From: Pseudomonadota bacterium
GTDB lineage: Bacteria; Pseudomonadota; Gammaproteobacteria; Burkholderiales; Methylophilaceae
Assembly (NCBI GenBank): GCA_029556915.1
Contig: JAKQIT010000088.1
Location: 43,932-107,931, forward strand
DNA: 64,000 bases
Reading direction: 5' to 3'
Shown: piece after piece, positions 30,469 through 37,036 of the stretch
How the letters are laid out: each line of letters opens with the position of its first letter
How positions within the stretch are numbered: the first letter of the stretch is position 1
Position numbers and translations under genes: made by a program
The notes under the pieces: generated by a model
Seen by the model: only the letters and a program-made list of their open reading frames with translations
Told to the model about the DNA's origin: nothing
Database searches by the model: none

Positions 30469-31020
30469 TCACTTCGGCAAGTTCACTATTTCGTAACTTT
30501 TTACCCACTTATACCCAAGCCCACCATTTTTTATTTCTAGGGTTAATTTGGAGTTTACTTTTAATCTGTTGTATTCGGCTTTACTGAGCTTAAAATGTTT
30601 AAATTCACTGTATGCTTTATCTAGGTTTAGTTCAGCAGAGTATGAGTAACCACGACCCTTGCTATTTTTATATTCACTTACAGTTTTTTCTATAACACTA
30701 GCTTCAACATAAATGCTTTCACTGGTATCAAAGTAGCAGTTCATTAGAATTGGGTATGATTGGTAAATCATCGGTATAGAAACTAATACAAAAATAAAAG
30801 CTAGTACCCAATTGTTTTTTGAATTCGTTATTGTTTGATATATGACTATGGCAAGACTTAAAACGATGCATATGACCCAAACTGTTCCAGAGTATAAAGT
30901 TTTAAGGTGCGCAGAGGGGGCATTAATGCTAGCTGCCACCATCATCAAATACATTGAATAAATAAAGAACAAAAAACCTAGTGCGTAAGGTAATGATTTT
31001 TTGAAAAAAGTATCAGACAC
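30469..31020 (-). CDS. Membrane protein with C-terminal beta domain (unknown, paralogue of 32415-33602)
   Basis: I do not recognise this 183-residue protein. It has three hydrophobic helices (about 12-30, 45-62, 70-88) and a C-terminal domain of about 80 residues, probably beta-rich (SIYVEASVIEKTVSEYKNSKGRGYSYSAELNL). That domain resembles the end of the protein at 32415-33602 in pattern (small strand, SxxRG-like turn, then KV/KLTLEIKNGGLGYKW). A GTG start directly follows the stop of the thioredoxin-like gene, with GGTGAG before it, so it is translationally coupled. Confidence 0.6.
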   Translation of the reverse strand: MSDTFFKKSLPYALGFLFFIYSMYLMMVAASINAPSAHLKTLYSGTVWVICIVLSLAIVIYQTITNSKNNWVLAFIFVLVSIPMIYQSYPILMNCYFDTSESIYVEASVIEKTVSEYKNSKGRGYSYSAELNLDKAYSEFKHFKLSKAEYNRLKVNSKLTLEIKNGGLGYKWVKSYEIVNLPK

Positions 31021-32414: not shown

Positions 32415-33602
32415 ATGTGGTTTTATTTTGGCTTGATAACTGTTTCAGTTTCTTTAATTGTTTATCTATATCAAAAGCTATCAATTAAATCTGCATTGCA
32501 GATGCGTAAAACCGCCTTACAAAATTGGACGTTCGATAAAACCCAATTAAGGTATCTATTAACGAATGCAACTGATAAAAACAGAGGTTTATTTGTTATA
32601 GAAATACCGTGTTTAACTACTTTGCAATTTTCAGCTCGGCAAGAGCTTCAAAAAGATAAGTGGGCTAAAAGATTAGGTGTTTCTTATGAATTTGAAACTG
32701 GGTCTCAGCCGTTTGATGAGCAAACATATCTAGCCAGCATTACGCAAGAAGACGCTGAAATTATTGGCACTAATAAAGAAATAATTGCTGAAATACGCGA
32801 TTTAATTTTTAAAAATCAAGATATTAACATTGTTGCTAAACGTACCATGCTTATTTGCGATGGCGAACATTTATATCTTGAACTGCACTTTAAAAAAGAC
32901 AGTGCTAAAAAAGATATCAATGTGCTTGCGGCCTATTACTTGCCTAAATTAAATGCGCTAGCAAATCATCTAGAGTGTTACAAGCGAGAATCGCAACATT
33001 TCTGGAAAGTGCCTGCACAACGTAACACTGCGATATTTTTGGCTATAAGTTGGGCGCTTGCAACTTGGGGTGGGTTGGAAGCAATCCGTTTCTTTATTGT
33101 AGATAAAAATGCATTATTCTCGCCATTAAGCTTAATGCCTGAAGCGAGTATTTTGGCTATATTTCTTTTGTTAGCCTTGTTATTTTTTGCCTTTCGGTTA
33201 ATTAAAAAGTCTGCAAGGCGGCATTTAGTGCTCATAGATATTTTAATATTTGGTGGGCTAGGTTTGCTTTTTTCAGTTTACGGGATGCTTTACGACTTAA
33301 ATTTAATGAAAGATTACAGCAAAGCATCAATCGTTAACTATCAAGTTGCTAGTAAATATAGTGAAAGTCATCGTGGAAGAAAGGGGCGTACTTATTACAC
33401 CTATCATTTCAAGTTGAATAACGCTGTTGAGCCAGTTGAATCCACAATTAAAGTAGGGCATGATTTTTACAACGAGATTGCAGAAGGCGACTTTATAACT
33501 TTCACCATTCGTGACGGCTATCTAAATAAAGTCTGGTTGGAAAAATTAGAAAAGTGCAACAAATGTGATTTGAAGAGCGAAAGTGAGCAAAATAGCTTTT
33601 AA
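32415..33602 (+). CDS. Membrane protein with C-terminal beta domain (unknown)
   Basis: I do not recognise this 395-residue protein. I start it at the ATG two bases after the rsmE stop; a start inside rsmE is open but unlikely. It has an N-terminal membrane helix (about 2-22), a soluble domain of about 190 residues, then three hydrophobic segments (about 215-300) and a C-terminal beta domain (YTYHFKLNNAVEPVESTIKVGHDFYNEIAEGDFITFTIRDG) that resembles the DUF3592 pattern. The same domain plan is seen in the shorter protein at 30469-31020 on the other side of the thioredoxin-like and rsmE genes. Confidence 0.6.
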   Translation: MWFYFGLITVSVSLIVYLYQKLSIKSALQMRKTALQNWTFDKTQLRYLLTNATDKNRGLFVIEIPCLTTLQFSARQELQKDKWAKRLGVSYEFETGSQPFDEQTYLASITQEDAEIIGTNKEIIAEIRDLIFKNQDINIVAKRTMLICDGEHLYLELHFKKDSAKKDINVLAAYYLPKLNALANHLECYKRESQHFWKVPAQRNTAIFLAISWALATWGGLEAIRFFIVDKNALFSPLSLMPEASILAIFLLLALLFFAFRLIKKSARRHLVLIDILIFGGLGLLFSVYGMLYDLNLMKDYSKASIVNYQVASKYSESHRGRKGRTYYTYHFKLNNAVEPVESTIKVGHDFYNEIAEGDFITFTIRDGYLNKVWLEKLEKCNKCDLKSESEQNSF

Positions 33603-33605
33603 ATA

Positions 33606-33637
33606 TTGTAATAAAAACATATTAATGTTATTATAAT
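33606..33637 (+). promoter_or_regulatory. Promoter of the HTH-NAGS gene
   Basis: A perfect TATAAT (33632-33637) with a weak TTGTAA (33606-33611) 20 bases upstream. Initiation about 7 bases downstream of TATAAT would leave a leader of only about 10-18 bases. There is no ribosome site before the ATGs, so the message may be leaderless. Confidence 0.6.
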
Positions 33638-33652
33638 GTAAATTTTACATTA
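33634..33652 (+). promoter_or_regulatory. Palindromic operator overlapping the -10 of the HTH-NAGS gene
   Basis: TAATGTAAA (33634-33642), one base, TTTACATTA (33644-33652): a 9-base perfect inverted repeat starting inside the -10 hexamer. A further TTAATGTTA half-site lies just upstream. The position over the promoter suggests repression, perhaps by the XRE domain of the gene it precedes. Confidence 0.65.
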
Positions 33653-33661
33653 ATGATAAAC

Positions 33662-35233
33662 ATGTCAATCGGAAACACCATAAGAAGTCGGCGTAAATCG
33701 CTAAAAATAACTCTACAAACACTGGCAGTGAGCGTAAAAGCCGATGCTGGCAATTTATCGCGCATTGAGCGTGGTGAGTTGGGCGTTTCTGAAGCCATGC
33801 TACGCAAAATTTCCAGCGCGCTTAACACTACACCAGCCGCGCTGTATGCGCAAAGTGACGCTAGTCAAAGCACAGCATTGCCACCGACCATTCAAAAACA
33901 TAACACCAAAGATTTTGTGCAGTGGTTTCGTTCTGCCACGCCTTATATTCACGCCTTTGGTGGGCGTACGTTTGTGATTGCTTTTGGTGGCGAAATTGTG
34001 GATGAGAAGCAATTTGTAGCACTCACCCATGATTTAAATTTGCTCGCCAGTTTAGAAGTGCGCTTAGTCTTGGTGCATGGGGCGCGGCCACAAATTGAGC
34101 AACGTCTTAAGCGCGATAAAATCACCCCTATGATGCATAACGGTTTGCGTATTACCGATGATGCAGCGATGGAGGCGGTGAAAGAAGCCAACGGTGCGGT
34201 GCGGGTGGAGATTGAAGCGCTGCTTTCAATGGGTACTGCCAATTCACCGATGGCAGGTGCGGATATTCGTGTGGCGAGCGGTAATTTTGTCACGGCCAAA
34301 CCCTTGGGTGTGCGCGATGGTGTAGATTTACAGCACACTGGCGAAGTGCGCAAAATTGATGCTATCGGTATTCAAAAGCGTCTGGACGATAATGAATTGG
34401 TGTTGCTTTCACCGGTTGGATATTCGCCGACGGGTGAAACTTTTAACTTAAGCCTTGAAGACGTGGCGGTAAGCACGGCGATTGCGCTGGATGCCGATAA
34501 GCTGATTTTCTTGATGGATTCGCAGGGCGTGCAAAATTTACGCGGTGAATTATTGCGCGAAATGACAGCCGAGAAAGCTAAAAATTTGCTCAAAAATGTG
34601 GCTGATACTGAAAATCCATTGCATATTTCTGAGGATACTTTGTATTATTTACCCGCTGCGATTCGTGCATGTGAGCACGGCGTTGCCCGTACACATCTAA
34701 TCTCTCGTCACATTGACGGGGCAATTATTCAAGAGCTATTTACGCATGAAGGCATTGGCACGATGGTGACGGAGTTGCCGTTAGAAACCATGCGCCAAGC
34801 CAATATTGATGATGTGGGTGGTATTTTGAAGTTGATTGAGCCGCTTGAAAACGAAGGTATTTTGGTGCGTCGTGGTCGCGAGCGCATCGAGATGGAAATC
34901 AACTATTTTTATGTGATGGAACACGATAATCGTGCGATTGGCTGCGCAGCTTTGTATCCATTCAAAGAAGAAAAAATGGCTGAATTTGCTTGCCTAGCGA
35001 TAGATCCACAATATCGCGGCGGCGGACGTGGCGATAAATTGTTTAATTTTTGCCAAGCGCAAGCTAAAACCCTAGGCTTCAAGCAACTATTTTGCTTAAC
35101 CACCCGCACTGAACATTGGTTTTTAGAGCGTGGCTTTATTGAAAAAACAGTTGAAGACTTGCCAGCAGAAAAAAAACAAATGTACAACTTTCAACGTAAA
35201 TCTAAGGTTTTTATCAAGTCACTCACACTTTAA
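33662..35233 (+). CDS. argA: XRE helix-turn-helix fused to N-acetylglutamate synthase
   Basis: N-acetylglutamate synthase makes the first intermediate of arginine synthesis. This 523-residue protein has an extra N-terminal XRE domain at about residues 5-63 (TIRSRRKSLKITLQTLAVSV, GNLSRIERGELGVSE, ALNTTPAALY), then a normal ArgA: amino acid kinase fold from about 84 (FVQWFRSATPYIHAFGGRTFVIAFGGE, VLVHGARPQIEQRL, GADIRVASGNFVTA) and a GNAT domain at about 385-523 (ACLAIDPQYRGGGRGDKL, FLERGFIEK). No stop or frameshift divides the parts. An ATG at 33653 is also possible. argB lies 0.9 kb downstream. The HTH suggests DNA binding, possibly autoregulatory. Confidence 0.9.
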   Translation: MSIGNTIRSRRKSLKITLQTLAVSVKADAGNLSRIERGELGVSEAMLRKISSALNTTPAALYAQSDASQSTALPPTIQKHNTKDFVQWFRSATPYIHAFGGRTFVIAFGGEIVDEKQFVALTHDLNLLASLEVRLVLVHGARPQIEQRLKRDKITPMMHNGLRITDDAAMEAVKEANGAVRVEIEALLSMGTANSPMAGADIRVASGNFVTAKPLGVRDGVDLQHTGEVRKIDAIGIQKRLDDNELVLLSPVGYSPTGETFNLSLEDVAVSTAIALDADKLIFLMDSQGVQNLRGELLREMTAEKAKNLLKNVADTENPLHISEDTLYYLPAAIRACEHGVARTHLISRHIDGAIIQELFTHEGIGTMVTELPLETMRQANIDDVGGILKLIEPLENEGILVRRGRERIEMEINYFYVMEHDNRAIGCAALYPFKEEKMAEFACLAIDPQYRGGGRGDKLFNFCQAQAKTLGFKQLFCLTTRTEHWFLERGFIEKTVEDLPAEKKQMYNFQRKSKVFIKSLTL

Positions 35234-35261: not shown

Positions 35262-35999
35262 CTATCTGTATTCCTTAGGAATCAAACGCATGGGCCTACG
35301 CATGCGTGACTCTAAAACCAACTCTTTTTGCCCTGCCTTAATTTCTACAAATTCCTCATACTCAACCACAGTGCTCACATTAAAGTTTTGATTTCGGTAG
35401 TGTTGCACTGTCCCCACTGGTACGCCCCAACCGTTGCTAACCACGCCAACACCATCCGGAACAGTTTCTGAACCACCTGATGTGATATTTTGATTTTCGG
35501 CAAGAATATAATAACGTCCTGGCTTTAGTGATTTAAAAAAGTAGCGCCCGTAGTCATCGGTTTTACTATGTAGCGCATATTTAAAAATTCTTGAATCAGG
35601 AATGAAGTGTTTCAGTTGCTTATCTTTTGAAAAAGGTGAAAAGCGGTTTTTATTTTCATTTTCAAGCCGATTCAACTCTAGTAAATGTGCAGTTACTGGA
35701 TAAAGGTAAACATTTACATTTTTTAAATTAACCGCAGGGCTTAGAGTAAATGGCGCATCTGAGCCAGCATTTTTGCCGCCACTACTCACCTTATGGTAAA
35801 GCACACCTTTAATGTTGGTGCTGCCAAGCTCCATTGCCGTCTTTGCTTGTGCCTCATCAAATGGCACGGTGATTTTTACTTCAACAGGAGTGTTTAGCTG
35901 CTGTTTTTTCGCCTCTTGATCGGCTTTCTGCATGGGTGAGGCGCAGCCAATAAGTGCAGTAGAGATGATTAAGTTTAGTATTACTGATTTGAACTGCAT
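35262..35999 (-). CDS. Lipoprotein with carboxypeptidase-regulatory-like (CnaB) domain
   Basis: The protein starts at 35999 (MQFKSVILNLIISTALIGCASP), a lipoprotein signal with LIGC lipobox; the open frame goes 33 codons further upstream but without a signal. The 245-residue protein has a beta-sandwich segment at about residues 120-175 (HSKTDDYGRYFFKSLKPGRYYILAENQ), the typical CnaB/carboxypeptidase-regulatory pattern, and a basic end. Function unknown, probably envelope. It separates the HTH-NAGS gene from argB, on the opposite strand. Confidence 0.75.
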   Translation of the reverse strand: MQFKSVILNLIISTALIGCASPMQKADQEAKKQQLNTPVEVKITVPFDEAQAKTAMELGSTNIKGVLYHKVSSGGKNAGSDAPFTLSPAVNLKNVNVYLYPVTAHLLELNRLENENKNRFSPFSKDKQLKHFIPDSRIFKYALHSKTDDYGRYFFKSLKPGRYYILAENQNITSGGSETVPDGVGVVSNGWGVPVGTVQHYRNQNFNVSTVVEYEEFVEIKAGQKELVLESRMRRPMRLIPKEYR

Positions 36000-36115
36000 C
36001 TTATCTTTCTTAAAAACTACTAGTAAGGGTTTTAATGGAGGTGGCACAATATTAACAAGAAAAATGTCGTTTAAACATAACCCAAATGGATATAACACGG
36101 TTTTATTTAGAGTAA

Positions 36116-37036
<921 letters not shown>

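Follow-up and report, generated by a model that had tools for sequence, protein, structure and literature searches.

A helix-turn-helix domain fused to N-acetylglutamate synthase throughout the Methylophilaceae, and its probable role at the enzyme's own promoter

In a 64,000-nucleotide stretch of a Methylophilaceae genome (assembly GCA_029556915.1, contig JAKQIT010000088.1, positions 43,932 to 107,931; hereafter the window, numbered from its first letter), a genome closest to Methylotenera and other Methylophilaceae among named organisms, the argA gene encodes an N-acetylglutamate synthase (NAGS, ArgA) that begins with an XRE-type helix-turn-helix (HTH) domain and is preceded by two putative operators. 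We show that this HTH-ArgA fusion is a trait of the whole family, bacteria that feed on methanol and methylamine, and consider it likely that the protein is a natural trigger enzyme that represses transcription of its own argA(-argB) genes, probably with arginine as co-repressor. DNA binding by the HTH, repression, hexameric assembly and the part played by arginine, its sign included, are what we infer from sequence comparison, a predicted structure and analogy with known systems.

The HTH-ArgA Fusion Is a Family Trait

A search for argA matched 175 of 187 Methylophilaceae genomes, representing 24/24 genera, and 118 of the 119 genomes of good quality; of the 12 without a match, 11 are less than 90% complete and the twelfth is G069 (91%). 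The alignment extends to query residue 11 or earlier, and hence into the HTH, in 171 of these 175 matches (146/150 outside genus g18 and 25/25 within it), and g18 keeps the fusion although its genomes at least 90% complete measure just 1.2-1.4 Mb. As to the four alignments that fall short of the HTH, G103 in fact carries the domain in frame (L202), in G197 (L228) a stretch of unknown bases separates the HTH from NAGS, the argA of G009 is a contig fragment, and for G112 one of two pieces is listed. An earlier note on this DNA, which had proposed an enzyme and regulator combined in one chain, had left room for an assembly error; with the fusion present throughout the family, both that and a frameshift are ruled out as its origin.

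Outside the family, none of 137 ArgA proteins from the same order and none of 69 from the same class (two samples that share one genome) reached the HTH, the lowest alignment starts being residues 50 and 47, respectively, in a test that would miss a non-homologous HTH ahead of ArgA elsewhere. A hidden Markov model (HMM) of the HTH likewise gave no match at E 1 ahead of any of 31 outgroup argA genes, and the same model detects 105/105 fused loci outside its training set. BLAST alignments run further forward at two outgroup loci, to residue 32 in L088 and residue 11 in L255; both were rejected as fusions, the HTH HMM being blank in each and the extension in L088 consisting of low-similarity sequence.

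An Apparently Competent Enzyme Behind a DNA-Binding Domain

A single uninterrupted frame at 33653-35233 on the plus strand encodes the XRE HTH and a complete NAGS, and the open reading frame (ORF), Pfam and NCBIfam matches all bear out the earlier note on this point. Its start is likely the Met at 33662 (MSIGN), the second in-frame ATG, which is preferred because MS(I/L)G opens most relatives' proteins at that position; residue numbers count from this Met. The features of the protein, all on the plus strand, are as follows.

33662..35233: HTH-ArgA, 523 aa, from the ORF, Pfam and NCBIfam matches and the likely start site in relatives; alternative in-frame ATG at 33653
33668..33877: XRE HTH domain, residues 3-72, from the AlphaFold model, HTH_3/HTH_31 and alignments to ClgR and the P22 C2 repressor
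33746..33769: predicted recognition helix, residues 29-36 (AGNLSRIE), a helix in the model
33779..33781: Leu40, two residues past the conserved Gly38; Leu/Gln here tracks TGT/TGC half-sites, as a correlation
33869..33901: flexible linker, residues 70-80, with a per-residue confidence (pLDDT) below 50 and a length that varies in the alignment
33899..33958: NAGS N-terminal helix, residues 80-99, from the model and the alignment to 2r8v
33968..34705: amino-acid kinase (AAK) domain, PF00696, E 6.3e-27
34733..34762: arginine-site loop ELFTHEGIGT, residues 358-367, after the published motif E-(L/I)-(F/M)-(T/S)-x-x-G-x-G-T; partner Lys280
34901..35140: GNAT (NAT) catalytic core, PF13508, E 3.5e-11

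Pfam returns HTH_3 (24.0 bits, cut-off 23), AA_kinase and GNAT, with HTH_31 at 24.8 bits and below its cut-off of 27, and the NAGS equivalogs of NCBIfam are matched by a wide margin (NF003641, E 2.4e-209 and 695.7 bits against a cut-off of 344; TIGR01890, 584 bits against 202.85). In its AAK and NAT domains and equivalog scores the protein is a classical NAGS, whereas the classical chain begins at the AAK domain without any DNA-binding domain and this one places HTH residues 3-72 in front, which makes it a variant. The added domain belongs with XRE/HTH_3 by a sequence score above the HTH_3 cut-off together with a five-helix fold in the model, and the Arg_repressor DNA-binding domain PF01316 was not found in HTH-ArgA. 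Enzyme and DNA-binding domain thus share one conserved chain, as in trigger enzymes.

The AlphaFold model, a monomer built from 46 input sequences (mean pLDDT 86.5, predicted template-modeling score 0.69), places the five predicted HTH helices at residues 3-13, 18-25, 29-36, 44-53 and 58-72, with a pLDDT of 86-92 to residue 60 and 71 for residues 61-70; Leu32, Ser33, Ile35 and Glu36 of the putative recognition helix are invariant among 42 fused proteins. Beyond the linker, the predicted helix 80-99 is long and runs into the kinase-like domain. Foldseek ranks the Neisseria gonorrhoeae NAGS 2r8v first, and the best superposition is with 3d2p, which holds arginine and CoA (TM 0.89 by target length).

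HTH-ArgA is 36% identical to 2r8v over 440 columns. Residues R404, E441, C444, T480, R512 and S514 correspond to N. gonorrhoeae R316, E353, C356, S392, R425 and S427, the residues given for glutamate binding and catalysis in PMC4490483, with T480 replacing the gonococcal Ser; the arginine pair K280/E358 corresponds to K201/E270, and the loop ELFTHEGIGT fits the published pattern. These eight residues, the catalytic six plus K280 and E358, are identical in 46/46 proteins, and both the catalytic and the arginine site are those of a classical NAGS. HTH-ArgA is apparently a competent NAGS, and a combined enzyme and regulator is plausible because the two sites are intact. In the N. gonorrhoeae enzyme six subunits are joined by interlaced N-terminal helices, and arginine sits beside the N-terminal helix, shifts it and widens the ring (PMC4490483). 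If the Methylophilaceae protein is a hexamer as well, as we assume by analogy, the HTH would be tethered to a moving part, since it directly precedes the helix that arginine displaces.

Two Phased Putative Operators Flank the argA Promoter

The palindrome that the earlier note placed at the argA promoter, TAATGTAAATTTTACATTA, is exact at 33634-33652, and nothing else in the window comes within 3 mismatches of it (0.13 such places expected; at least one turned up in 12 of 100 shuffles). What had been taken for a further half-site beside it is indeed an additional site but really a second dyad, at 33606-33620 and 30 bp from the first. The two 15-bp dyads share the consensus (A/T)TGTA-N5-TACA(A/T), start exactly 30 bp apart at 33606 and 33636, and have the predicted -10 between them.

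33606..33620, no strand: putative operator 1, TTGTA-ATAAA-AACAT (TTGTA-N5-AACAT); 9/10 consensus letters, overlaps the -35, kept in relatives
33636..33650, no strand: putative operator 2, ATGTA-AATTT-TACAT (ATGTA-N5-TACAT); 10/10 letters, core of the 33634-33652 palindrome, over the expected transcript start
33606..33611, plus strand: -35 like hexamer TTGTAA, from a promoter scan, not above chance alone
33629..33634, plus strand: -10 like hexamer TATTAT, after a 17-bp spacer from TTGTAA and preceded by TG; position kept in relatives

The TATAAT that the earlier note saw under the palindrome is present at 33632-33637; as a -10 it is judged less likely than TATTAT and was set aside, because the latter has the 17-bp spacer and a register kept in relatives. 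Relatives of the Leu40 class (see below) likewise have an A/T-rich stretch resembling a -10 between their operators. An Rfam search of the window gave no match.

Among 98 family upstream regions (dereplicated, counting that of the window and leaving aside g18 and the Methylophilus type), 75 score 15-16 of 16 for paired dyads, 16 score 14 and 7 lower, compared with 0, 21 and 959 of 980 mononucleotide shuffles. When two WTGY-N7-RCAW dyads are sought at any spacing in 138 dereplicated upstream regions (loci with less than 90 nt upstream, L189, L227 and L228 left out) at 15/16 or better, the spacing peaks at 30 bp, with 58 of the 138 sequences against 0.0 in dinucleotide shuffles; 31 bp follows with 20 sequences and 29 bp with 12, and smaller peaks lie at 22, 39, 41, 42 and 50-52. 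The pair is also close to specific for this gene: in 417,436 nt around argA at 59 loci, there are 34 pairs with at least 19/20 letters, each at a different locus and no more than 130 nt ahead of HTH-argA, with none elsewhere. Within the window's genus a mismatch-free pair occurs in 21 of 41 genomes, each time at argA; at up to 2 mismatches 34 of the 41 have it at argA and other scattered places also appear, and the remaining 7 either lack argA in the assembly (G016, G021, G044), hold an argA fragment (G009) or carry the other, Gln40-class operator type (G010, G011, G017). No upstream region of the 31 outgroup argA genes without an HTH scores above 14/16.

The distance from operator to start codon ranges from about 10 to 54 nt among relatives, so that conservation of the operators is not mere alignment inertia, and in both dyads the information content is concentrated in TGTA/TACA or TGC/GCA. 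Outside g18, the members of a perfect TGTA-type pair lie 29-32 bp apart (25 pairs), and in g18 the distance is 41-42 bp (7) or 50 and 52 bp (4), in 11 of 25 upstream regions; these values, near 3, 4 and 5 helical turns, suggest two protein dimers on the same face of the DNA, joined by a flexible bridge. Outside Methylophilus and part of g18, most relatives keep the palindrome ahead of the fused gene in the form of a phased pair, which, like the spread of the fusion, speaks for the earlier note where its own refuting conditions could have overturned it.

Several single loci stand apart. The g18 loci L164-L189 have divergent HTHs in streamlined genomes, with no clear sites in, for example, L164, L166 and L169. 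L227 (genus g39) has an apparent N-terminal extension before the HTH; reading its upstream region by eye shows a pair of perfect TTGC-N7-GCAA dyads with a spacing of 29 bp. G053 has a further copy of the operator pair at a contig edge (C6:22-66), perhaps from redundant assembly, besides the argA one on C17, and the same long palindrome-rich sequence with a degenerate likeness to the pair occurs away from argA at G005:C1:57966-58010 and G044:C86:2842-2886.

HTH Residue 40 and Half-Site Type Vary Together

In proteins with Gly30, Leu40 (or Ile/Met/Val) goes with TGT half-sites and Gln40 with TGC. At the four half-sites in order, T:C counts are 42:23, 64:2, 64:1 and 66:0 in the Leu class and 2:32, 5:21, 7:29 and 12:23 in the Gln class; they take no account of relatedness and leave out 20 sequences that score below 14 as well as 1 whose HTH could not be read. 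The same trend is seen whether residue 29 is Ala, Ser or Pro. Position 40 is what we take to be the counterpart of the base-contacting Asn55 in lambda repressor. Methylophilus-type proteins, with Ser at position 30, depart from the rule and are preceded by TTTGC half-sites 30 bp apart (14/15).

ArgR and Single Dyads Elsewhere in the Genome

A search for ArgR (PF01316) gave no match in any of 31 genomes, 19 from the window's genus and 12 from other families of the order (the family's other genera not being searched), and was positive in 9 of 14 control genomes. Regulon work in PMC5343134 reports strong conservation of ArgR across many gammaproteobacteria and its absence from other classes.

Single dyads show no excess in the window's own genome, with 15 places against 17 for the reversed control, and an arginine regulon drawn from them was rejected on that ground; strong single dyads number 5 (control 3), that of argA being the only one at an arg gene. 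No dyad of at least 9/10 letters lies in the 4.2 kb around argJ, itself present. Two strong dyads of the same type (L096 and L097, C82:108455 and 108945) lie in a metW-like gene behind metX, with similar weak pairs matched in relatives G009, G010 and G017; these are probably a coding coincidence, though a recurrent one.

Genes Around argA

Of 57 relatives whose sequence continues downstream, 50 have argB directly after argA, with a gap of at most 260 bp; in the window argB begins 0.9 kb beyond argA.

36152..37036, plus strand: argB, N-acetylglutamate kinase (ORF, AA_kinase)

The two are separated by a minus-strand gene without a Pfam match (35262-36098), and a loose dyad, ATGTCGTTTAAACAT, lies at 36064, ahead of argB. 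Two further ORFs have no Pfam match, 30472-31020 (-) and 32454-33599 (+), the latter standing between rsmE and argA. The rsmE-argA gap is at most 200 bp in 29 of 59 relatives and 1.20-1.25 kb, like the window's, in six others, so that the gene inserted there may be shared.

Discussion

HTH-ArgA would join the proteins in which a metabolic enzyme and a DNA-binding repressor form a single chain. PutA, BirA and NadR share this build and differ in enzyme and pathway, for in HTH-ArgA an XRE HTH precedes a biosynthetic NAGS that has its own site for the end product; their DNA-binding folds differ from the XRE HTH as well. PMC8249747 counts five trigger enzymes in Escherichia coli, BirA, NadR, PepA, PutA and PyrH, with NAGS not among them. 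Nearest in build are BzdR/BoxR of Betaproteobacteria, in which an XRE HTH and a linker precede a shikimate-kinase-like domain derived from a metabolic enzyme; HTH-ArgA is no member of that family, since only its HTH matches NF006015 (22.1 bits against 204) and its C-terminal part is NAGS. BzdR has no detectable shikimate kinase activity, a loss judged essential, and its bifunctional intermediate Q1 was synthetic (PMC3602430), whereas the enzyme residues of HTH-ArgA are intact. The classical NAGS of N. gonorrhoeae (2r8v/3d2p) has in common with it the AAK and NAT domains, the arginine motif, the catalytic residues and the N-terminal helix, and lacks the roughly 80 residues of XRE HTH and linker in front. 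Other NAGS variants with altered domains, H-NAGS (an ArgH-NAT fusion, Moritella) and NAGS/K (Maricaulis, Xanthomonas), combine enzyme functions, and PMC4490483 mentions no DNA-binding domain for them, nor helix-turn-helix, DNA-binding or transcription for NAGS at all. Searches of the open-license literature, judged by titles and the openings of abstracts, turned up no report of a DNA-binding NAGS, though one may exist elsewhere. ArgR/AhrC would have the same expected job, arginine-dependent repression of arginine genes, with a domain that HTH-ArgA does not have.

We propose that each interlaced pair of N-terminal helices in the hexamer would carry one HTH dimer, that such a dimer would recognize a 15-bp dyad, and that the two helically phased dyads flanking the -10 would both be occupied when ArgA is in excess or arginine-loaded, covering the -35 and the start point. 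Occupancy of both operators would block RNA polymerase and lower transcription of argA, usually of argA-argB. Arginine bound beside the N-terminal helix would inhibit catalysis and most likely change how the HTH pairs are oriented or spaced, with arginine starvation relaxing the ring, restoring catalysis and releasing the promoter; that arginine acts as co-repressor is probable by analogy with the gonococcal enzyme.

A number of observations weigh against this proposal. The promoter scan is at chance level, with 2 sites in 33400-33900 (one on the minus strand) against 1.3 in shuffles, and in the window's own genome the operator pair, at up to 2 mismatches, has 1 match, fewer than the 3 of the reversed control; the significance of the pair therefore rests on its conservation in relatives. 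Spacings of 22 and 39 bp, minor peaks of 8 sequences each, fit a helical series poorly or not at all, the g18 spacings of 41-52 bp speak against one rigid hexamer docking at both sites, 7 of 25 g18 upstream regions score below 14 at 29-31 bp, and some g18 pairs at 29-31 bp lie inside the rsmE coding sequence. Methylophilus-type genes are without full dyads, 11 of 15 scoring below 14/16, and hold only the half-sites in the 30-bp register. As for residue 40, Gln-class proteins that have Ser29 and Glu39 are split almost evenly (6C:5T), and a tree that omits 3 short proteins and 1 lacking an operator label gives 3 residue changes and 2 independent pairs (1.5 in the same direction on average); with changes so few and phylogenetically clumped, the correlation is inseparable from descent. 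The structural model, finally, is that of a monomer and says nothing on the oligomer.

The alternative that survives best, and to which we assign a real but clearly smaller chance, is a plain level-sensor, in which enzyme in excess occupies the operators and arginine either does not act directly on DNA binding or even undoes it, as the substrate does for PutA. Operators that flank the promoter and are nearly unique to argA would suit it, PutA too binding only its own put region, where it represses when proline is absent (PMC8249747), and the 11-residue low-confidence linker could uncouple the HTH from motions of the ring. The position of the HTH, directly ahead of the helix that arginine moves in N. 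gonorrhoeae NAGS, argues against such uncoupling, as does the lack of ArgR in the 31 genomes, since arginine-responsive control would otherwise be missing.

It is unlikely that some other protein, such as a stand-alone XRE regulator or an unrecognized arginine repressor, binds the operators while the ArgA HTH has another use, for instance in stabilizing the oligomer or anchoring it to DNA or RNA. The identity of the binding protein is a deduction, and Methylophilus genes retain the HTH yet have only half-sites; on the other hand, the paired site is essentially confined to argA and missing from the 31 outgroup argA genes without an HTH, and half-site type shifts along with a residue of the ArgA HTH itself. 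The form of the dyad suits an XRE dimer.

Less probable still is that HTH-ArgA governs the whole arginine regulon, an idea with the attraction that without ArgR the other arg genes have no known regulator: the genome-wide dyad counts match their control, the only strong dyad at an arg gene is that of argA, and the surroundings of argJ are empty, the other arg promoters not having been checked singly. A vestigial, drifting HTH, a gene-calling or assembly accident, or a chance palindrome in AT-rich DNA is refuted in the main and very improbable, for although a pair with 2 mismatches is nothing unusual in the window's own genome, the fusion extends across the family, streamlined genomes included, core residues of the HTH are invariant, and 0 of 980 shuffles match the observed pair score.

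Autorepression by HTH-ArgA is thus the reading we prefer. Its fuller form, that the missing arginine repressor of the Methylophilaceae is the first enzyme of the pathway, with one allosteric arginine site in a hexameric ring setting both catalysis and, by way of HTH pairs mounted on the interlaced N-terminal helices and two phased operators, how far its own operon is transcribed, seems to us about evenly balanced between true and false. If true, it would be a naturally occurring case, its catalytic residues preserved, of the enzyme-plus-HTH state postulated for the evolution of regulators from enzymes, and a living counterpart of the synthetic bifunctional intermediate made for BzdR. It would also fill a gap in what is understood of arginine-synthesis control in bacteria without ArgR, in that enzyme inhibition and gene repression would draw on one and the same sensor, in a family whose easily grown, harmless methylotrophs have served in amino-acid production.

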